In this document: piece after piece, positions 1 through 52,833 of the stretch | Layout of the letters: the number at the start of each line of letters is the position of its first letter | Numbering within the stretch: position 1 is the stretch's first letter | Assembly (NCBI GenBank): GCA_030272585.1 | Contig: BSYQ01000001.1 | Location: 9,377,001 to 9,441,000 of the forward strand | Source: Bryopsis sp. KO-2023 | Taxonomy: Eukaryota > Chlorophyta > Ulvophyceae > Bryopsidales > Bryopsidaceae | Direction: 5' to 3' | DNA length: 64,000 nucleotides | Translations under genes and position numbers: made by a program | The notes under the pieces: model-generated | Told to the model about the DNA's origin: nothing | What the model saw: the letters and a program-made list of their open reading frames with translations, nothing else | Database searches by the model: none

Positions 1-165
1 CTGACACTGAATATACTGAACCTGGTTCGAACTCTTTTCACTACGTTTCAGCCTCTCATTGAGCATCACGTAACTACCCCATTCCAGTCAGTCCGCGACT
101 ACCTGGAACTCTCAGACTGTAACCTCTGTTTTCCGCCTAGATCTTCGCCTACTAAGTCAGCCGTT

Positions 166-1896
166 TCAATCGATGCCTGAGCTCTCGTGTTCCCAAGTTC
201 GTGAGTTGTATTCCTCCACTTGCCGATCCCTGAGCGTGGCAAACCGGTCTATCCGAACCGGGCCAAAGTGAACCTCCAACCGACGAAAAATAGCCGGATT
301 GAGTCTCCAGCCATGAGACTGGAGGCGGCTCAATGCGTCTGCCTGGAAATTGTCCTGGGAGGCCACCCAACGTGGGCACAACCGCGCCCCCGTCCGCGTC
401 AGAAATTCGACGATCTGCTGTAATACAGGAACCAGAGTCGGCTCGTACACCCGTAGCTTCTTGAGCGCCCAATAAGTTACCCTGGAGTCCGTAACCACGG
501 ATAGCAGACATTTGTCGAGGCATGGTTCCCAATGCTCCAAGGCGCGCGACACTGCCGTCAGCTCCTTCCAATTGATTGACTGTTGCTGATAGTCGGCCTG
601 AAAAGAGCCGTGACACACTGCCCCCTGTGCTCGTCGCTCCCGCTCGTCGGTCTCCACCAAGCCTTTCAACAACGAGGCCCCCCAGCCGGTGAGGGAGGCG
701 TCGGTTTCCAGCGTCCAATGGATCTTCCCGGCTTTCCACCGAGTTCCATTCCAGGACGCGAGAACGTTTCGCCACCACTGCAACTCCCTCCTCGCGGCTG
801 CAGATATGGGAACCCATGAATTCCAAGTCTTCTTTTGACCGATCTGAGCGTATAAATGGCTCAAATAGAACCTGGCGGCGCTTAACGCTGGGCTGGTGCT
901 CTGGCAAAGGCCACAGAACGATGCCACCAGTCGAACTGGGAGCTTCCAACGCTGTCGGCGCCCCCGATCGAGCAACAACCGTGCCAACCCCTGGATCCGA
1001 CACAACCTTGTAACCGGTACTCGTAAAAGACATTGATTGGTATCTATTTCTAATCCCAAATGAATCCTCCTCCTGGAGGGCGAAAAATCGCTCTTGATGG
1101 GGTGGACTAACAGGCCTAAAGCCTGGAAAAATTTTTGAATCCACCTGCCCCATCGAGACAAAACCTTTTTCCCCTTGTATAACGCTAGAAAGTCGTCTAA
1201 ATACACTAAAAGCGTGACGGGAATATCGGCTTTCCAAATTTTCTTCAAAATGCCCCCTGGCGGACAAGCCACTTGTCGCGGAAAACGTAAAAAGGACGAC
1301 ACATCCTTCATCACCTTTGTCCATACAAAGGGTGAAATACACAAACCAAACGGCAATGCACAACACTCGAATAGACGACCATTTACCATAATCGTCAAAT
1401 ATTTCCTCAGCTTGGGGTGGATGGGCACATGGAAGTACGCATGTTTCAAGTCCCATTGAATCATGTGGGCGGCTTCTGGAAAATGGCCGACCGCCGACTG
1501 CAGAGTCTCGAACCGGACTTTGGGAACCTGAATCCACTGATTGATTGGTCGTAAATCCATGATGAGCCTGTAGTCGGGAGAATCGCGTTTCTTGATCAAG
1601 AAGGCCTTGGACACCCAGCGATTCGAACGGGCCGGCCGTAACACCCCGAGATCCAAATACTCTTGTAAAATCTTGTCCCATGCTTGACCAGTTGCCCCCT
1701 CCATCACTGAATTCCCCTCGTGGAAGGGGGGCGGCGGTCCTGAGATCCAATTCCAATCCACCCCCTGATGCAACCATTTCATTGTGCGCCGGGAAGCTCC
1801 CATACGTCTCCAAATCGTCAACCGCTTCCTCGGCTGATTGAAGAGAAAAGTCGTCTGATCGCGAACTGGCCATTCTGCTGGCGGCCGATACCGCAT
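166..1896 (-). CDS. Reverse transcriptase-RNase H of a DIRS-like retroelement
   Basis: A 576-residue open frame. The N-terminal third holds RT fingers and palm motifs: the segment around LIKKRDSPDYRLIMDLRPIN, then IQWDLKHAYFHVPI (first catalytic Asp), LPFGLCISP, and VYLDDFLAL with the YLDD box. HLGLEID follows. The C-terminal third is an RNase H domain with the acidic residues expected: the Asp of TDASLTGWGA, the Glu of INWKELTA, the Asp of VVTDSR and the Asp of DNFQADALSRL. The enzyme would copy the element's RNA into DNA and degrade the template. Its ATG directly follows, in the same frame, the UGA that ends the gag-like ORF. No frameshift is visible. The order and the lack of protease and integrase favour the DIRS group over Gypsy or Copia. 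Confidence 0.85.
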   Translation of the reverse strand: MRYRPPAEWPVRDQTTFLFNQPRKRLTIWRRMGASRRTMKWLHQGVDWNWISGPPPPFHEGNSVMEGATGQAWDKILQEYLDLGVLRPARSNRWVSKAFLIKKRDSPDYRLIMDLRPINQWIQVPKVRFETLQSAVGHFPEAAHMIQWDLKHAYFHVPIHPKLRKYLTIMVNGRLFECCALPFGLCISPFVWTKVMKDVSSFLRFPRQVACPPGGILKKIWKADIPVTLLVYLDDFLALYKGKKVLSRWGRWIQKFFQALGLLVHPIKSDFSPSRRRIHLGLEIDTNQCLLRVPVTRLCRIQGLARLLLDRGRRQRWKLPVRLVASFCGLCQSTSPALSAARFYLSHLYAQIGQKKTWNSWVPISAAARRELQWWRNVLASWNGTRWKAGKIHWTLETDASLTGWGASLLKGLVETDERERRAQGAVCHGSFQADYQQQSINWKELTAVSRALEHWEPCLDKCLLSVVTDSRVTYWALKKLRVYEPTLVPVLQQIVEFLTRTGARLCPRWVASQDNFQADALSRLQSHGWRLNPAIFRRLEVHFGPVRIDRFATLRDRQVEEYNSRTWEHESSGID

Positions 1897-2595
1897 TCAC
1901 TTCTTTGGATGATTCTGATTCTGCGGCGGCTGCTGCTGTTGCTGAGCCCCAGAATTCTCGCCCTGTCCTTGCTGCGCTCCTTTACGAGAACGACCTTTTT
2001 TCTGATCACCCCGAGAGGGCGTAGTAGCGTGCTTAACCTGCGCCCGCTGCAACTGCTCCCGAAACGAGCCAAAATATTCGTGGGCCACTGGGGCGGAATA
2101 TCCCCGGAACTGAGCTCCTTGTAATCGAATCTGATTCTGCAGCCCTGCTGCTGCACCGGGAACGTCAGGGTCTTGGGAACCTCGCGTCTGTAACACCTGC
2201 CACTGGGCAACTGCTAAATCCAAAGTACGTACTTGCGCGGACACAATCGGATGGAGATGTTCACGCAGTGCCTCCGGAACTCCAGGGTGCGCCAAGAACC
2301 CAACCAAATTAGCAGTAGTCACAAACAGCGAATACAATACCGGAGCTGTATTCGCAATCTCCTGCCAGAAGCCTGAGCGTTTCCCCAGAGTCGATTGTAA
2401 CTCCAGACCGTCCGCCGTTCGCCCAAAATCAAACCAAAGTCCCAAAGTCGCTCCTGTCGAGGGAGCCTCGACCGGGTTATTCGCCGCGGGCAAAAGGGTT
2501 GTATCCGACAATTGTCGATACAAAGCCAAATCCTGTGGGATAGAAACTCCGTAGTTTCGAGCTGCTGTGGTATACAATGGTAAAAGACGATCCAT
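1897..2595 (-). CDS. Gag-like protein of the DIRS-like retroelement
   Basis: A 232-residue ORF upstream of RT-RNase H. It has no recognisable enzymatic motif. The middle is helix-prone (SLFVTTANLVGFLAHPG, then LREHLHPIVSAQVRTLDLAVA). The last 50 residues are basic and rich in Gln (a KKGRSRKGAQQGQG stretch, then five consecutive Gln), as expected of a nucleic-acid-binding gag tail, and there is no CCHC zinc knuckle. It ends in TGA at 1899-1897, immediately followed by the ATG of the polymerase ORF in the same frame. A second minus-strand frame (2846 to about 2596) is open just upstream and could be a leader or an earlier start in a shifted frame. Gag identity comes from position and composition. 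Confidence 0.6.
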   Translation of the reverse strand: MDRLLPLYTTAARNYGVSIPQDLALYRQLSDTTLLPAANNPVEAPSTGATLGLWFDFGRTADGLELQSTLGKRSGFWQEIANTAPVLYSLFVTTANLVGFLAHPGVPEALREHLHPIVSAQVRTLDLAVAQWQVLQTRGSQDPDVPGAAAGLQNQIRLQGAQFRGYSAPVAHEYFGSFREQLQRAQVKHATTPSRGDQKKGRSRKGAQQGQGENSGAQQQQQPPQNQNHPKK

Positions 2596-3395: not shown

Positions 3396-4256
3396 GGAAG
3401 CATTTTCGGGGAATGAGTTTTATGATGGAGCCTGAATGAATGGGTTCAACTGCCGCTTTGGATGGGCTGCAGATTTGAAGGATTTTGTTTGAGCTTGTTT
3501 GTTTAGACTATTGGGCCGCCAGAGTTTTTGAGCCTGGAAAATGAACTGCAGTTTGATTGGGGTTTTCTTTGAACTTTCATGTGGTATTTTGATCTTTGTT
3601 TCCGCGGATGTTCAATTTTGTTTGGGGCAACGAAAACGCGAAAGTATGCGCGATATGTGAATCCCCAGGAAATAGAGAATTGCGAAAAAACGAAGTGAAA
3701 ATGTATGTACATAAAGTTTTTAATTCTTCTTCCATTCATGCTTGTTAAATTTCTTTTGGGTTTTGCCAATGATGGGTGCAAGCCAGGTCAGTCGATGCCG
3801 TAGAATGGAACTGGATTTCAGAATGGAACTGGATTTCGCAACTGTTGTATTTTATCACTTTTTTGCACTACACTTCAATGCGCAGTGATATCAAGCACTC
3901 TGGTATACTTTTCTGCAGTCCAGCTTCTGATTCAATCAGCCCCAGCATTTCTTGCATTTCATTTCATTTCTGTTTCCCATATGACCTGACTTCTGATCCA
4001 GCATATCTGCTAACCTCAGGAGAGAGTGTCCCAAATGATCAAACCCTTGATATGCCATCAAAACACCAACATGTGTGATTCCACCCCCTGAAGACTGATT
4101 ACGTACCCAACAGAGTCTCTAAATTTTCGATTTCGATGTTCGCATTGGCACTTTTTGCCACACGTCGATGAAGGGAAGGGAAGATATCACCAGTTGCATC
4201 CATTAAAACACGAGGCCTTTATTTTTTTTCCCATCGTTGGGGGCGAAGCAACGAAA
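3396..4256. other. Intergenic, no gene seen
   Basis: I see only short ORFs without motif or codon consistency. An 18-nt direct duplication (GAATGGAACTGGATTTC) lies at about 3803-3838. The 3' part is the 5' flank of the phosphatase gene. An upstream in-frame ATG at 4155 would add 34 residues to that protein, but they look unlike coding sequence. Confidence 0.5.
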
Positions 4257-5528
4257 ATGGGAGTCGCCATGGACGCGCTGAGCAGTTTTTCCACCGACCT
4301 TGGACTCGGTGTGCTTGCCACCAGTTTGATGCCCTTTTGCTTGATGCCCCCACTCCACCACCACATACGTTCGGTAGCCAAACCCCTGGTGTCAAGGAGG
4401 GTTGCAGAAACGGCTGGATTTGTCAGTCAGGTCCAAGAATTGAACAGCCCCAAACTCTCCTCATTGATTTCTTTGTGCAATTCCACGGTCAGCACGGAGT
4501 TCTATGTGGTGTTGCTTTCATTGCTGGCATGGACAGGAAATATGGTGTTGGCTGGGAGGGTGGGTTACTTGATATCTTTATCGCTGTACTTCGGAAATGC
4601 GATGAAAGACATGGTGGGGGCTCCCAGGCCATTCGCCATTCCTGCGAGTGCAACTAAGCCTCGAGTGAAATTTCAAGGGGCAGAAGGGGAAATTGGACAT
4701 GTGGTGGAGCATGGCCTCCCATCATCTCATGTCATGAATTCCCTGACATTGGTGCTATACATGCTCCATACAGGACTTGAAGCAGGGACATTGAACAGCG
4801 AGAAGAAACTGGGGATGTATTTGGTTGGGCTGCTGTGGGTGGCCTGGATTGGTTGGGGGAGGCTGTATTGTGGAATGCATTCTTTGTTGGACCTCATTTC
4901 GGGATGGTTCAACGCAATCTTGGTATACAGGGTTTTCGTTCATGGGGAGCCGATTCTCGTCAGCCTGTTTCACTCAGGGATGGATGGACTGGTGCGACAG
5001 CTCATAGTCGCAATGCTGTTGCTGAGTGTATATCCAAAGCCTGAGCGATACACGCCTTCCTATGAATATGCTGTTACGATTTTTGGGGGGGTCTGGGGAA
5101 TGATGTGTGGCCGGTACTGCCTGGAAAGATGGATGGTCGGTGGTGCAGAAATCAATTCAGGCTTTGCGGGCTACCGTTGGGATTCTTGGGGTGTGGATGA
5201 TTTTTTCACGATCGGGTGCAGAGCAGTGGTGGGGTTTGCAATGATGGGTGTTGTGAAGGTTGCGACGAAGCCAGCATTGAAATATTTGTTTTCCTGGGTG
5301 TTCCGTCTTTTTCCTGTGGGGGTGCGGGGGTTGTGGCAGCCCCCCATTGGCGTTCGGTATGAAACGAACTGTTCATCAAATGGAAGCAAGGAAACTAAGC
5401 TGTTGAAGGCGACGGATGGTACTTATTGGGATGTGGACATCTCGACAAGGTTCGTTTCTTATGCTCTCGTTGGTGGCTGTTGTGGTTTTGGGTGCTGGCT
5501 GGCTTTCGATGCGTTGGGTCTGAAATGA
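4257..5528 (+). CDS. Sphingosine-1-phosphate phosphatase-like PAP2 membrane enzyme
   Basis: A single exon of 423 residues from the ATG at 4257 (another in-frame ATG is at 4269). The three PAP2 (type 2 lipid phosphate phosphatase) signature blocks are present in order: KDMVGAPRP at residues 117-125, PSSHVMNS at 155-162 with the catalytic His158, and GRLYCGMHSLLD at 201-212 with the nucleophilic His208 and supporting Asp212. Several hydrophobic segments surround and follow the blocks, as in ER-resident S1P phosphatases of the SGPP/LCB3 type, whose usual length is similar. The expected reaction is dephosphorylation of sphingoid-base phosphates at the ER membrane, feeding ceramide synthesis. A broader lipid phosphatase role is possible. 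It is intron-less, unlike most neighbours. The downstream gene is convergent. Confidence 0.85.
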   Translation: MGVAMDALSSFSTDLGLGVLATSLMPFCLMPPLHHHIRSVAKPLVSRRVAETAGFVSQVQELNSPKLSSLISLCNSTVSTEFYVVLLSLLAWTGNMVLAGRVGYLISLSLYFGNAMKDMVGAPRPFAIPASATKPRVKFQGAEGEIGHVVEHGLPSSHVMNSLTLVLYMLHTGLEAGTLNSEKKLGMYLVGLLWVAWIGWGRLYCGMHSLLDLISGWFNAILVYRVFVHGEPILVSLFHSGMDGLVRQLIVAMLLLSVYPKPERYTPSYEYAVTIFGGVWGMMCGRYCLERWMVGGAEINSGFAGYRWDSWGVDDFFTIGCRAVVGFAMMGVVKVATKPALKYLFSWVFRLFPVGVRGLWQPPIGVRYETNCSSNGSKETKLLKATDGTYWDVDISTRFVSYALVGGCCGFGCWLAFDALGLK

Positions 5529-8739: not shown

Positions 8740-9816
8740 ATGATCGTGATGGTCTGGGTACCTCCGCGGTCCCGTCGAGGAGCGAGACGGTCGTACGCTG
8801 GCCGATTCGCCTCGACTTCGACAGCTATGAAAAAGTCGGTTACCAACGGTGTTGTGAAGAAAGTTTCGGGGGGTGGCGGGGGTGCGGTGGTCGTGCCAGA
8901 CGCGGCTCCACCATCTCGTCCCCCCAGTAAGCCCGCCAGTGACGTCTTGGCTGGGGCAACTGCTAGAGCAGCTTCTCAAGCTACCATCCATCCTCTGGAC
9001 ACTCTGAAAGTCAGAATGCAAGCTGGAGCTTCAAAAGCAGCCAAATCTGCTACCCCTGGGGGTTTTGGGAACGATCCATGTGCAGCAATGAAGAATCTGG
9101 GGAAGAATATGGGGAGCCTGTACAAGGGGGTTCTGGGAGCAGCCGGAGGGGCGGGCATTGCCATTGGAGCATACTTTGCTGTTTACAGCGTCGCTACGAA
9201 TATTATTGCAAGGAGGACGAATTTGAAGCCTGCAGCGGTTGCCTTTGTGGGGGGTGGGGTGGCTGCTGCCGGTAGCAGTGTGGTGAAGGTTCCGCTGGCT
9301 GTGTGCATCCGATCGGTTCAAGCAGGGGTGTACAAGAACGTTTTCCACGCTGCGAAATCTATCGTTGCAGCAGCTGGACCGAGGGGGCTTTTCACCGGGT
9401 TCCTCCCGACGGTGCTGGAAGACATCCCCGACATGGCTTTCAAATTTGCAAGCTACGAAACCTTGAGGTCGCTTCATAAGGCGATGATTAAAGACAGGAA
9501 TGCCACCCCCCAAGAAGATTTCATGATTGGAGCGTTCGCTGGGGCATTTGCTGCTGCAGCCACCACCCCTCTGGATGTCATTAAAACCAACATGATGTGT
9601 TCTGCTGCAAGCAAACCCAACATGATGATGTCAGCTGGGGCTGTTCTGAGAAATGATGGACTGAAAGGGTTCTTCAGGGGAGTCGGACCAAGGGCTGCAA
9701 GCAACGGAATCAACTCTGCCATGTTTTTCTGTTTCTTTGAGGCTCTGCGCACCGTCATCAACAAGAAAATGAAAGATTCAAAGAATGAGGAAGTTTTGAT
9801 TAATTCTGAGGGATGA
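8740..9816 (+). CDS. Mitochondrial carrier family protein (SAM-carrier-like)
   Basis: A single-exon 358-residue protein. Three carrier repeats follow a 65-residue Gly/Pro/basic leader. The signature motifs are PLDTLK at residues 85-90, PLAVCI at 185-190 and PLDVIK at 277-282. The second lacks the usual acidic and basic residues. Post-signature elements are recognisable (GLFTGFLPTVLEDIPDMAFK, then GFFRGVGPRAASNG). The arrangement after the second motif (QAGVYKNV) resembles S-adenosylmethionine carriers, but substrate assignment from this alone is tentative. It would exchange metabolites across the inner mitochondrial (or plastid) membrane. The basic, Ser/Arg-rich leader may be a targeting peptide. 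Met30 is an alternative start. Confidence 0.85.
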   Translation: MIVMVWVPPRSRRGARRSYAGRFASTSTAMKKSVTNGVVKKVSGGGGGAVVVPDAAPPSRPPSKPASDVLAGATARAASQATIHPLDTLKVRMQAGASKAAKSATPGGFGNDPCAAMKNLGKNMGSLYKGVLGAAGGAGIAIGAYFAVYSVATNIIARRTNLKPAAVAFVGGGVAAAGSSVVKVPLAVCIRSVQAGVYKNVFHAAKSIVAAAGPRGLFTGFLPTVLEDIPDMAFKFASYETLRSLHKAMIKDRNATPQEDFMIGAFAGAFAAAATTPLDVIKTNMMCSAASKPNMMMSAGAVLRNDGLKGFFRGVGPRAASNGINSAMFFCFFEALRTVINKKMKDSKNEEVLINSEG

Positions 9817-13200: not shown

Positions 13201-16200
13201 GGGAATCGTGAAGCGGTGCTTCCAAGAATGGCAGGAAATCTGCAAAGAGCATGCATGGAAATGCCAGATCCGCATGAGGGAAAGAGAAGTGAAAGCTTTG
13301 GAAGGAAAGATTCGAGGATACGAACGACGGCCGATCGTGGTGCTCAAGTATCGTAAAATGAAGGAATGTTTCAGAGCTTGGCTAATGCAATCCGATAGAT
13401 TGAGACGGAAAAAATTGATCCAAGAAAAAGCTGGGCGGCACTTCAAAAATGCACAGTACTTGAAAGCATGGAATTCATGGTAGGGTTGTTCCCCACAGAA
13501 ACCATCTCCACATCAATTCCATTCAAAAACGTTTTAGCACAATTGCATGCATCCACATTCTTATTCTTTCTCTGCAAGGTGTGTTGTTGCGGAAGAAGAA
13601 AAAAGGAGAAGCAATCTGATCAAAAAAGCCGCCGGGCGAATTCAAAATGTCAAAGCTGCCTCGGCGATGACCGCTTGGAAGTTTATGGTGGAAATGAACA
13701 AGGAGAAGAAGGGCAAAATCGAGAAGGCCTTGGATTGGTGGAAAAATGCTTTGATGGCTCGAGCGTGGAGACCTCTGGTGGAACATGCCAAATGGAAGAA
13801 GGAAAAGAGGCAGATCTGCAACCGATGGAAGCAACCCTTCATGGTATGCGAAAGCTGCTTGGTTCAACCAGCCCTTGTTGGTGAAAGAAAATGGACACTG
13901 AATATACTCTACATTATAATGCATTATAATCTACATTATAATGATGTTCATGGAGGTCTGATAAACGAACAAACAAACTTATATGGTCTGATAAGTGACC
14001 ATATATCTAGAAAAGAATGCTCATCGCTGCCTGAGTTCTGTTTCCACAGTTGATTAATCGAAAGCATCTCCCTTGGAAAGCATGACGTTTGTTACGCACC
14101 AAGGGTGCCTCCCCCCACCCCCCTTTTCTCAAACTTGGATCGAGCGATCAGAACAAGGAAATTATTCTTTTCCAATTTCATTTCTGGTCGTGTTCGTGAG
14201 TTTTTGTCATGTTGGTTGGGAGAGCAGTCCACATTTGCCCACGCTTTTCTCAATCGCGACGCCCAACCGCCCGCGTCGATCCTTTTCGCAATATTCGGAG
14301 GGGTGTGTGGTGGTCGCGTGGTGTAAAAAGTGCGGCAAGTATGAGCAAACGTGCGAGGGACGAAAACGAGTCTTCAGCGAACACGAAAAAGCTCCGTTCG
14401 GCCCCTTCGCACACTGACGGGGAAAAGGAGGAGCGGCCAGTCGTTTTCGAGTTCACCAACATCAGGACAGGCAAGTTCCTGAAGCGATACAAACGCTTCC
14501 TTGCGGACGTCGCCCTGGATGAGGAGTTCGACGGCAAGCAGGAGGCCACCGCCCATTGTCCCAACACAGGCCCGATGACTGGGTTGCTTGACCTACCCGA
14601 CGCCAAAACTGTTCTGAGCATATCAGCCAACCCAAAGCGAAAGTGCAAGTTTACGCTGGAGCTGATCGAAGTGAAAAACTCTGAGGCGAACGTCCTGGTC
14701 GGCGTGCACAGCGCCAATGCGAACAACATCGTCAAAAAGATTCTGGAGAAGAAACTGGTGCCTGCTTTCGAGCTCTACGAGGACATCAGGAGCGAAGTCG
14801 TTTTTGGCAAGGATCGCAAATCGCGCATCGATTTCGTTCTCTCTGGTAGTCCTTCCGATCGGAAGATGTATGTTGAAGTCAAGAGCGTAACGCTCGCCCA
14901 AGAGTACGAAGGGCCCGACGACCACAAAAGGATTGGTTTGTTTCCCGATACCGTGAGCACCCGAGCGCAGAAGCACGTGAAAGAACTCACCGAAGTCGTG
15001 GAGAAAGGGACCGGCGACGCCGCGTTCGTGTTTCTGATTCAAAGGAAGGATTGCACCCTTTTCGCCCCCTCTTTCGAAAACGATCCAGAGTATTCCAAGC
15101 TGCTTGTTCGTGCGGCGGACCTGGGCGTTAAAACGGTCGCCCTTTGCGTGGATTTCGTTCCGGATGGTGATAAGTGGAATGTGGTTTTCTTAGGAGCGGT
15201 GGATGTTGATCTGGGCTATAAAAATGAGGGTGTTGCTTGATAGGAGGGTTCGCAGTGTAAACATTGTTTGGAGGTTAGGATGCAAGGTCCAGTTCCCTCA
15301 ACAAATACACCCCTAATGAAGAATACCAGTCCAAATTCATGTCACCCTTAACTTGATACTTAAAGTAATTGCTGGATTAGCCCTGAAGGGAACAGATCTG
15401 TGGACTATTAACAGCAACTCTATTCACATACTCCTTTGGGGTTTAGCCTCCACAAATCTGATGTTGCTCTTAAGCAGGATGCCCTGGTGTTGTGGTGTTC
15501 TCCACAGGCAAAGGCATTCTACGGCTGGATAGACCGGATCGAATGGCGTAAGAGAATGGTGGTGATCACCACCAGGACAACCAAGCGCCTGTTGTTCCGC
15601 TCCCAGACGTCGGCGTTTCAAGCTTGGACGGAGGCAGTTCAGGAAGCCCGTCTCGAAAGAGAATTTCAATCCAAGGAGGAGGTGGTCGCGCACAATCAGG
15701 AGTTGCACCGAGAAAACGATCGCCTTCGAAGGGACAACGAGCGATTCGTGAGGCTTATCGACAGTGGAGAATGGGGTCGAGGACGAGTTTCCGAGTTATC
15801 ACAGGTAGGTAACATTCTCCAAACACACGTCTCTGGTGCATTGTTTCGCATTTTTTGATGCCCTGTGGTTGTCTGAAGCAGGCTGGGGAAATTCTGCGGT
15901 CGGAGCGTGATGCTCTGATGGAGCTGGTCAAGAGTTTGAGGAGGGAGTACGAAGCGGTGGAACGAGCCAAACATGCTCAGGAAGGCGAGCTCCGATCATT
16001 GAAGGAAAAACTGGTGCTTGGAGGAGCATCCACGGCTGCAGGTCGAAACAAGATGCTGGTGAGAGGAGCCTCCAGTTTCAATGCGCTCGTCCGCGCGATG
16101 AAACAAGACTTGATCGAGAAGGGGACCGGGAAAGCGGATCCCAAGCTTATGTACGAAGTGGAGAGAATGTCGTTGGACAAAGTTCATGTTTTCCCCGATG

Positions 16201-44545: not shown

Positions 44546-46821
44546 ATGCATTGGCTGCTTGACTTCGCCATCACTTGCGTGGTGTGCGCAGTTGCTTGGT
44601 TGGCGTACGTCTCAAAGAGGTGCGCTCGTTTTCGCTGTTCTCAGGACGGCGGGTTTCACCCGTTTTCGATTTGTTTTTGTGCTTGTGTTTTTGCCTATGT
44701 TTTCGCTTGTTTTTTCTTCCCTTATCGTTTCCTAGCTTTTGTTTGGTTGCGGGAATTTTACAAAATGTCTTGTCGAGGCCACGAGGTTTTTTGGCAGTGG
44801 CTTGCGTACGACGAAAATTTCCTGCGCGCTGCTGCAACCTCATTTTGAAGTCGAGTGATGCTCCCAGCAGGATTTCTTCACCGAGCCCTTGCGATAAAAA
44901 ATGGAGAAAACCTGCAAATACGTCTTTGTTCTCGACTCTGTCCGCCGAAGAGCGAAATAAACTTGATGATACGATCAACAAAGCCGCCAAAAATCTTCTT
45001 GACGCGAGGCAACAGGAAGGACAGTGGGAGTATGGAAGTTGTTTGGGGGTGCCTAGCACATGTCAGTATTTTCTCTTCGCCAGGATTTTCCTTGGTAAAG
45101 AGTTTCGACTACAAGCCACGAAGTTGGACGCCCGCCGGCTTCGGAATGTTATCCTGGAAAAACAATTGGCGGATGGATCTTGGCAGCCAGTTCCAGACGT
45201 GAACAGTGGAGGCGACCTGACGGCCACCATGTTTTGCTACTGGACATTGAAAACGATGGGTGAGGACATCCACACAGAAAAAATGGTAAAGGCGAGAAGC
45301 TTTATTTTGGCTGAGGGAGGCTTGGGGAGCGTTCAGACGATGGCGAAAATATTCCTGGCTTTGACTGGGAACATAAGCTGGGGGAGCGTCCTGCCGTACG
45401 TCCCCTTGTTCATTTTTGGTGACAGGGGTCTGGGGTGGCTGTGGAATTTGAGGACGTGGGTCCCTGCTTGGATACCCCCCCACATGGTCTCAATAGCGTA
45501 TTTGAGACACCAAAAAGTATGCAAGCGTCTGCCAGAGCTGGACTTGAGCGAGCTTCAGCTGGAATGCGAGCCAGCCAAGGCGTGTTCGCAAAGTACTTTT
45601 CCCAAAACTTTGGGACCTGCCCCAGGATCAGTGAAATGTTGCATTCAAAATGCTAAACAATTGACTCAGGGACGAGGCTCCATCGGGTCCTTCACCTTGT
45701 CGTCGCTGCTTGGGGTGCTGATGTACGAAGATTATCTCAGGCGATACGAGGGGAAGGAGTGCGACGAGCTCCCGAAGCGAATTCGCGCTTGTCTGGAGTT
45801 CTGTGAGGGGACGTATTTCGATCCTCCGAACGCCAAGGTCGCCTATTTGGGGATGTCAATGTATGGCGACTTTTGGGACACTTGCCTGTGCGGCATTGCG
45901 CTCTTGAAAGCGAACATTCCGCCGGAGCAACTCCTCCAGTCGGCGGAATATCTGGTTCCCCACGTGTCTAAGGATGGGGGGCTCGGCTTCAGCTCGGAGT
46001 TCGACTACTATCCGGATTGTGACTGCACGGCGGAAATGGTGATCTTCTTCCGGGCGCTCACCCAGGGAGCACTGAAAGACGTCAAGGGCGGGCGGCTTGG
46101 GAAGCTTGCGGATCGCGGGGTCGGTTTCCTCAGAGCGCGTCAGAATCGAAGTGGCGGCTGGGCGGCGTTCGACAAGGATCTGGAGAACACGCTCGTCATG
46201 CATGCAGTCAAGGCGTTCTCGACGTTGGCGGACAGTGCAGAACTGGACGATCCCGCCTGTGTGGACATCACCTGTCATGTCCTCGAAGTTTTCGCGCACA
46301 GCGGAATAACCAAGGATGATCCGCAGGTCGTGCGGGCCATACATTTTTTGAGAAAGTCTCAGGAAGACTGTGGGGCTTTTCAATGTCGTTGGGGAACGAA
46401 TGGAATTTATGGAGCATCCAGTGTGCTGGTTGGTTTGTCTGCAATTGGCTTCGATCTGGAATGCGATTGGGTGCAGAGGGCAGCCGACTGGCTGGTCTCT
46501 GTACAGAACAGCGATGGAGGCTGGGGGGAATCGACAGTTTTATCTTTCCGTGATCCGAAAGGCTCCCTGGGGAAGGGGGCCTCCACACCCACTCAGACCG
46601 CCTGGGCGGTGCTCGGACTTTTGGAGATGGGGCAAGAGTGTTACTGGAGGGCTGCGGATGAGGGGGTAAGGTATTTGATGCGAACGTTCGAAGAAGAAGA
46701 AAGATTTGTGGACAAATCGTCTGTCGCACCTGGCCACAGAAACATTGTACCGATGGTGTATGAATCGTATGCACCGGCGTTTTCTCTGCAAGCAATCGCC
46801 TCTTACAAGGCAAAGTTGTGA
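44546..46821 (+). CDS. Squalene-hopene-type triterpene cyclase with an OSC-like DCTAE active site
   Basis: Two exons, 44546-44619 and 44736-46821 (intron GTGCGC...CCTAG, phase-matched), encode 719 residues. Exon 1 gives a hydrophobic N-terminus (FAITCVVCAVAWLAYV) that may anchor the enzyme. From about residue 125 the protein follows the prenyltransferase-like double alpha-barrel of class II triterpene cyclases, with QW motifs (QLADGSW, QNRSGGW, QNSDGGW), GRGSIGSFTLSS and STPTQTAWAVLGL. The catalytic motif is D452-C-D-C-T-A-E458. Squalene-hopene cyclases have DxDDTA and oxidosqualene cyclases have DCTAE, so the second Asp of the DD pair is Cys here. The product could be a hopanoid, tetrahymanol or another triterpenoid; substrate is uncertain. 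It cyclises squalene or its epoxide at membranes. Bacterial ancestry is plausible. Confidence 0.88.
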
Positions 46822-50598: not shown

Positions 50599-52833
50599 AT
50601 GCGTGTCAACACGGAAGTCCTCGCGGAAAAGCTCAGGTCGCTGAACACGACCCAGCAAATGATCGAGTCCGTGTCGCAGTGGTGCATCTTCTATCGGCGG
50701 GACGCGAGCACCATCGTGCACTACTGGGACGTCGAGTTCCGTCGCTCGGCGCCCGACAAGAAGCTGTCGTTGCTGTACTTGACGAACGACATCCTCCAGA
50801 ACTCGCGAAAGAAAGGGCGTGAGTTTGCCGACGAGTTCGTTCGCGTCGTGCCGAAGGCGCTGAAGCAGTTGTACAACGAGGGGGACGAAAAAATAAACAG
50901 ATCTTTGGTCAGGCTCGTGGGGGTGTGGGAGGAGCGCCGGGTGTTCGCCAAAAAGTCGTTTCGCTCTTGCCTGACGAAAACGGTGGACATTGACGTCCCG
51001 GTTTTGGTGGACGAAAAACCAGCGACGCCTTCTGTCACCGTGGCGAAATACGACAAATATGCGCCCGTGGAAAGACTTGCTGGTGGGGGGACAAAAAAAA
51101 AAGAAAATAAAAACGAAAATAAAAACTGCCACGTGTACGGAAAATATGTGAAAAAGAAAGGATCACTGAAAGTTTCACTGTCACTGTTTCATTGCCACTT
51201 GGAAACGGAAAAGGAGGTGGATTCTGGAAAAAAAAATCTGGAAAACAGTTTGTGGAATCCCATGTGACAATGAGGGCCGTTTGTGTTGTTTTTTTTTTGC
51301 TTGAAGAGGCAATCGAGGAGACTGAAGCATGCGTGGCGAAAACCAGAGAAATGGAACAGAAGGCATCCATGCCAGAGGTCAGCATCCAAGAATCCCCCCC
51401 CAAAAAAAAAATAAAAATAAAAATTTGTCTTGAGTACTATAAAAAAAAACTAATCGGGGATTCATGAATATTATTATCGAATCGGTGTCTGAATTATTGT
51501 TGTTTTTATATTTTTTTGACAGGGATTGGTGGAATCCGGAGGCATCCGTGAACTGCAAGATTGTGAAGCAGCAATGGGGGCATATTATGATACACTCAAT
51601 GCTGAGGTGGAGAAGAGACGGAAAATCGTCGCATTGCTGCAAGATCTGAAAACTAAAGCGGTGAGTCTTGCTGAAATGGGGAGGGAAAAAATAATGAATT
51701 TGTTTGCAAGAATAATTAACAAATAAATAATTTTGTTTGAATTTTGTTCAAGTCATGTGTGACCGTTTTGAGCTGCAAAATTTTGATGCCCTCTTTCGAG
51801 CCATTCAGGGCAAAGAAGAAAGTCGATCAGGAGAAATACTGCAATGTTTTTTTTGTTTTTTTTCTGCGTCGTAAACACAGAAATGAATTTTTGATTGGTT
51901 CTCTGCAGGAAGATGACTTGGAGAATTGCCAGGAGCAATTGATGCTTGCAGAGATTCGTAAAAAGAGGATCTCCAGTCGAATTGGGGATTTGGAAGCCAG
52001 TAACTCACCGCCTGCCCCTGAAGTGGACTCGTGGGAGGATGAGCCAATGCCAGACCCCATGACTGGCCTGGTATGATCTCAGACAGACTCAGCAAGTAGA
52101 AAAAAAAAACCAATGAACGAATACTCCAACTGCAAGCATTTCCTTGTCCTGACAGGGTGATTATGCATTTTTCTTTGTGTGTTTCTGTGTTTGTTTTTTC
52201 TTTTTGGAAAATTGGGGCTGAGGGAACTCCATCATGTGTTTTCTGGTTCACCTACTGAGGGATCTTTTTTTTCAATAATTTTTGGTTTTTCTAGGAGGGT
52301 GCTGGAATTCCTATAACTCCACCACCAGTCAATACTCCAGAATCGGCCGTCCCTCAGCTTGGAGCACAGGAGCTAGCTGGTATTGTGGTAAAATCGCATC
52401 CGTGGTCAATCTTATTCGAAATTTCCGTGGGGTATCCATTCCAAAGAAAAATATATTTTACCTGTTGTTTTTCTTAACAAAAACATTTAGTCTGAAGTTC
52501 TTTCACTGGGTGGCCACTTCTCTTCTAACCAAAATCAGATATGCAATGAAATCCACCCTAGGATTTACTGTAATTGGATTCTGGGATACCAGTTTGAAAG
52601 AAATCTTGTTTGTGTTTGGGAAAAAATTCCACAGCGCTGATGGCAACGCCAGGTGTACCGACCTCGACTGCCCCACAAGACGATGATGCTCCTGCTGAGC
52701 CAGGTGCTTTGCCTGTGACGTCGGGGGGTGGCAGCGGAGGTGGAACTCTGGATATGGTTGCAAAAGGCTTGGCAGAATCCGATCAGCCTGCTGCTCTCCT
52801 TGCCCAAGCGTTGCAAGAATTGCCGGAAGTGAG

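Follow-up and report, generated by a model that had tools for sequence, protein, structure and literature searches.

A diverged STC-clade triterpene cyclase with cysteine for the last aspartate of DXDD in the green alga Bryopsis sp. KO-2023

Class II triterpene cyclases are separated by a classic divide: a DXDD motif goes with protonation of a squalene double bond, and an Asp-Cys pair goes with opening of an epoxide. A cyclase gene of Bryopsis sp. KO-2023 joins, in nature, the first Asp and the His451 of the squalene type with the Cys of oxidosqualene cyclases (OSCs). The gene lies in a stretch of 64,000 nucleotides (C1:9377001-9441000), which we call the window. To which family does its product belong, and which substrate might it use?

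The DCDCTAE motif and its gene

The cyclase is encoded on the forward strand in an intact open reading frame (ORF) of 748 amino acids (44575-46821), in which both Pfam domains of squalene cyclases are recognised (E 8.3e-66 and 1e-31). The codons at 46012-46035, CCG GAT TGT GAC TGC ACG GCG GAA, give P-D-C-D-C-T-A-E in the window translation, and the DCDCTAE motif that a first-pass annotation had pointed out is therefore real. It occupies 46015-46035 (+) as D374-C375-D376-C377-T-A-E, numbers that are the same as in the squalene-hopene cyclase (SHC) AaSHC. The TGC codon at 46024-46026 (+) places Cys where DXDD has its last Asp, at the position of AaSHC D377 and human OSC C456. Asp374 is present in the alignment, which bears out the annotation's statement that the SHC motif keeps its first Asp.

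Asp is nearly universal at position 377. Among 147 aligned cyclases it was found in 143, the four with Cys being the window cyclase and three OSCs; a recount on ungapped input gave Asp in 135/139 and Cys in 4/139. Counted by family, leaving aside P0017, itself an OSC with Cys, and P0019, whose alignment is poor, the column holds Asp in 136/136 SHC-like rows and in 7/7 rows of the squalene-tetrahymanol cyclase (STC) clade, whereas 3/3 OSC rows and the window cyclase have Cys. It is also the window cyclase's sole departure among 36 columns invariant in 14 hand-picked relatives, letters being required in at least 13. Changing C377 to Asp in silico raised the score on the tetrahymanol synthase model TIGR04277 by 4.1 bits and lowered that on the OSC model TIGR03463 by 6.5 bits. 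The second half of the motif had been read as the DCTAE of OSCs. This holds for the Cys, which stands at the OSC Cys456 position, but not for what follows it: the trailing Glu is common in the STC clade (5/7 rows, against 8/136 SHC-like rows). Hence, TAE is no OSC mark, and Cys alone is OSC-like. We conclude that what sets this cyclase apart is the Cys that replaces the final Asp of DXDD.

Might the Cys codon instead be an error for Asp? A change from GAY to TGY requires two base changes, so one miscalled base cannot account for Cys at 46024, and error is disfavoured. Nor did a clade with DCDCTAE turn up in the sequences searched. In 398 Pseudomonadota genomes the pattern PDxDCTA had 25 matches, of which 0/25 fell in a cyclase; the control pattern PDxDDTA, searched in 120 genomes, matched 24 times, 11 times in a cyclase (cyclase status was assigned by BLAST with six query proteins). 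Among the papers listed by a literature search on tetrahymanol and green-alga cyclases, none contained DXDC, by which absence from print is not implied. As an engineered SHC mutant the Asp-to-Cys substitution is already known, according to PMC6127371: AaSHC D377C and BmeTC D373C carry the identical change, but these are man-made variants of bacterial enzymes (with Phe601 in AaSHC), whereas that of the window is natural and lies in an STC-clade protein.

The main coding exon, recognised by its ORF and its Pfam and NCBIfam matches, spans 44736-46821 (+), its 5' end being predicted. Its frame is open after a stop at 44560, shows homology to TIGR04277 from about 44971, has no ATG upstream of 45229 and ends with the stop codon at 46819-46821. 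From the DNA sequence alone we predict a first exon of 74 bases (44546-44619, +), with an MHWLLDFAITCVVCAVAWLAYVSK start and a hydrophobic, signal-like character, and a GT-AG intron of 116 bases (44620-44735, +; GTGCGC...TTTCCTAG). Joined, the two exons give an in-frame protein of 719 residues that begins MHWLLDFAITCVVCAVAWLAYVSK. The predicted N-terminus has a hydrophobicity score of 2.29. An N-terminal hydrophobic stretch is found in 6/6 full-length STC-clade proteins (score at least 1.96), and a score of at least 1.9 in 0/119 SHC-like proteins; the hydrophobic start thus makes the two-exon model fit the STC clade. Signal-like hydrophobic N-termini are seen in P0001, P0020, P0021, P0037, P0038 and P0077, hinting at a location in the secretory pathway.

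Placement among cyclase families

We gathered relatives from the best 120 of 4218 matches of a region-limited protein search, from earlier matches and from eight loci. Two protein-database searches made before the region limit had given 19 matches each, mostly SHC-like; the STC relatives came from the region-limited one. The loci came from a scan of genome contigs that found 13, of which eight gave a motif-bearing frame; a scan of viral contigs found no relatives. The best identity to any relative in the set is 36.4%.

In a tree of 33 rows, the window cyclase, six relatives and P0001 formed one clade with support of 100/100, the order inside the clade not being resolved. We call it the STC clade, a label that rests on P0037 and P0077, which exceed the TIGR04277 cut-off, the rows including no characterised STC sequence. 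One relative, P0021 from Anaeramoeba flamelloides, is named 'sporulenol synthase'. When the motif and F601-loop columns were removed, the STC clade was again recovered with 100/100, and uniting the window cyclase with four OSCs, a grouping chosen once the first tree was known, was rejected (p-AU 1.55e-5). The window cyclase lies outside the OSC clade. A chimera of OSC and STC is ruled out by the STC placement in the tree without the motif columns. The alignment and tree that the first-pass annotation had proposed thus put the protein in the STC clade. Its description as SHC-like needs narrowing: the protein is nested in this clade and is not a generic SHC.

The best NCBIfam model for the window cyclase is TIGR04277, at 367.8/368.6 bits, below the cut-off of 500. 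Several clade mates also fall below it (P0020, P0021 and P0038 at 436-474 bits and P0001 at 370.5), and the 439-residue P0058 scores 318 bits. On other models the window cyclase scores 253.3 bits against a cut-off of 431.1 for TIGR01507 (SHC), and for the OSC models 125.9 against 851 (TIGR03463) and 225.3 against 322.7 (TIGR01787). In the 82 columns that are invariant across seven STC-clade rows, the window cyclase differs at 13, one of them an artificial first residue, and is therefore a diverged member. We classify it as a class II triterpene cyclase of the eukaryotic STC clade. Since it lacks a complete DXDD, which 7/7 clade relatives have, and scores below the curated cut-off, we refrain from calling it a tetrahymanol synthase.

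Do other active-site residues follow the STC or the OSC pattern? His614 (46735-46737, +) aligns with AaSHC F601 and is the STC-type residue: the column holds His in 6/7 STC-clade rows and Phe in 135/136 SHC-like and 3/3 OSC rows, although a recount on ungapped input found two OSCs with Asn, not Phe. The proteins with His there are the window cyclase, P0020, P0021, P0037, P0038, P0058 and P0077. Changing His614 to Phe in silico cost 3.8 bits on TIGR04277. A supplement legend of Takishita et al. 2012 (PMC3317845) describes His instead of Phe in STC and ties it to the C-ring cation; equating their position 608 with AaSHC F601 is our own reading. Like its STC relatives, the window cyclase also has Met at L607 and Gly at S309. 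In the segment D457-I-T-C-H461 (46264-46278, +), D447 and H451 of AaSHC and the STCs are kept, and Ile458 takes the position of OSC Cys533. The H451 column holds His in 7/7 STC-clade but 7/136 SHC-like rows, with Arg in 129/136 SHC-like and Ala in 3/3 OSC rows. Trp192 (45469-45471, +) aligns with AaSHC W169, where OSCs carry His (human H232). Two OSC active-site residues other than the motif Cys, Cys533 and His232, are thus absent, while Asp374, Asp447, His451 and Trp169 of AaSHC and the STCs are all kept. Identity is 29.3% to AaSHC (PDB 1sqc), which differs from the window cyclase in having Asp for Cys at 377 and Phe for His at 601, and 18.8% to human lanosterol synthase (1w6k), from which the window cyclase differs in keeping Asp374. 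One published statement differs from our alignment: PMC6127371 gives OSCs asparagine at the D376 position, where we find Asp in 3/3 OSC rows.

The host genome and its sterol-pathway genes

The genome comprises 91.1 Mb in 28 contigs, and the cyclase gene sits 9.4 Mb along contig C1. As a query against the whole genome, the window cyclase found one match. The chlorophyll-binding family has 107 matches in the genome, and light-harvesting matches occur on C1 too. One light-harvesting ORF with a plain transit-type start corresponds to PDB 6igz chain 7 ('Lhca-h') across all 264 residues (613.9 bits); we take 6IGZ to be the photosystem I of Bryopsis corticulans. The match fits Bryopsis, a siphonous green alga, of which a KO-2023 assembly (GCA_030272585.1) is mentioned in PMC12509668. 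On the evidence of this ORF we rejected a chlorarachniophyte or cryptophyte host; a search for phycoerythrin-alpha gave no match, but its control gave none either, and the search carries no weight. Window ORFs for a PAP2 phosphatase (4155-5528), a mitochondrial carrier (8740-9816) and a CID domain (50599-51267), all on the forward strand, are consistent with a nuclear setting. Elsewhere in the window, two long overlapping ORFs at 152-1900 (-) mark a retroelement, 166-1896 matching reverse transcriptase and RNase H, and an ORF at 14209-15240 (+) matches both domains of the bacterial-type SfsA family, here in an algal nuclear genome.

The alga also has a separate OSC of its own, spread over many exons that match a plant cycloartenol-synthase-like protein exon by exon. 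Squalene epoxidase exons score 119.5, 115.5 and 65.4 bits on the Pfam SE model, a model that also matches in two bacteria; the sole PDB match of the first of these exons is squalene monooxygenase. With genes for both enzymes, the alga should make 2,3-oxidosqualene and sterols. In this it is unlike the two ciliate genomes treated by Takishita et al. (PMC3317845). The alga's OSC has a variant of its own: at L008 2965-2979 (G000:C9:4692464-4692478) it reads SDCSSEG where the OSCs compared have SDCTAE, so that Ser-Ser replaces Thr-Ala beside the catalytic Asp-Cys.

Substrate and product

What might such an enzyme make? Our preferred reading, held tentatively and somewhat short of even confidence, is an STC-derived predicted enzyme that now cyclises 2,3-oxidosqualene to a 3-hydroxylated triterpenoid of tetrahymanol/gammacerane type. 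The enzyme would have given up squalene for 2,3-oxidosqualene, for which the alga has the biosynthetic genes. Asp376 would protonate the epoxide, with Cys377 as its hydrogen-bond partner; the chain would close in an STC-type pocket, where His at the F601 position would favour a six-membered-ring, gammacerane-type end, and the 3-hydroxylated triterpenoid would be the expected product. Exchange of Asp for Cys probably eases epoxide opening over the full squalene cascade, thereby favouring oxidosqualene as substrate. According to PMC10086137, the epoxide is protonated in OSCs by the Asp of DCTAE, whose acidity is raised by Cys456 and Cys533, and the same exchange of Asp for Cys in bacterial SHC is described in PMC6127371 as hindering squalene polycyclisation; both count for the oxidosqualene reading, as does the oxidosqualene to be expected in a host with an OSC and a squalene epoxidase. 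Descent from an STC is favoured by the 100/100 clade, the rejected union with OSCs, His at F601 and the rank of TIGR04277 as best model, and with just one departure among the 36 invariant columns, general decay seems less likely. However, the absence of the Cys533 and His232 equivalents and the retention of Asp374, Asp447, His451 and Trp169 are what one would expect of a squalene enzyme, and AaSHC D377C and BmeTC D373C still protonate squalene, according to PMC6127371. The 13 departures from STC-invariant columns and the missed TIGR04277 cut-off likewise count against the reading as a whole.

The alternatives keep squalene as the substrate, or dispense with catalysis or with the gene itself. 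In an unlikely but substantial one, Cys377 fails to stabilise an early cation, and squalene is cyclised only partially, to a triterpene with one or two rings, of the 3-deoxyachilleol or polypodatriene type. Such an enzyme would be the natural counterpart of engineered SHC D377C. It retains Asp374, Asp376, His451 and Asp447, and PMC6127371 describes just such outcomes: AaSHC D377C shifts to monocyclic 3-deoxyachilleol with strongly decreased activity, and BmeTC D373C gives considerable mono- and bicyclic products with hardly any tetra- or pentacyclic ones. But an enzyme so much weaker than wild type is unlikely to be a stable natural state, and retention of the His tied to the C-ring cation (PMC3317845) suggests that later steps matter. 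Rather unlikely, in our estimate, is a working tetrahymanol synthase in which other changes in the pocket, Cys375 and Cys460 among them, make up for the lost Asp, so that tetrahymanol is made from squalene beside sterols. The clade, the STC-type residues at F601, L607 and S309 and the predicted signal-like N-terminus all suit such an enzyme; the Asp kept in every STC-clade and SHC-like row counted does not, nor does the finding, as given in PMC6127371, that full cyclisation is hindered in both enzymes engineered to carry Cys.

That same fixity of the lost Asp, together with the 13 departures, would suit a cyclase that is inactive or in decay, or a protein whose role is not catalytic, and at 36.4% best identity the relatives are too distant for a selection test. 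Yet the 748-residue frame is intact, 35 of the 36 invariant columns are kept, and passage from Asp to the exact OSC residue by two base changes seems atypical of decay; we consider this improbable. Nothing we found speaks for an error of assembly or sequencing, or for contamination by a microbe. Against these speak the two base changes needed, the position of the gene deep in a contig with light-harvesting matches, and the neighbouring mitochondrial-carrier and CID-domain ORFs, which together make this explanation very improbable indeed.

If the preferred oxidosqualene reading is correct, the gene could represent a natural second route of oxidosqualene cyclisation, in which an STC-clade enzyme gained the OSC-type Asp-Cys by one substitution and yields a 3-hydroxylated gammacerane-type product. 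We regard this as possible but somewhat doubtful. Were it true, the acid pair would be shown able to set the use of epoxide or alkene. This natural mix of squalene-type and OSC-type residues could directly test what decides substrate choice.

The presence of an STC-clade gene in a photosynthetic green alga, one equipped with an OSC and a squalene epoxidase of its own, also matters for the question of which organisms could be sources of gammacerane biomarkers. STC is described in PMC3317845 and PMC5133447 as tied mainly to low-oxygen life. In the literature searched, tetrahymanol was not linked to Bryopsis, the name occurring only within a reference, and nothing was found on a tetrahymanol cyclase in chlorarachniophytes; for another green alga, Leontynka, the relevant part of the Leontynka paper reports neither STC nor SHC. 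Within the STC clade, the metagenome protein P0001 carries DTDDTAE but has Ile, not His, at the F601 position, and its product may differ.
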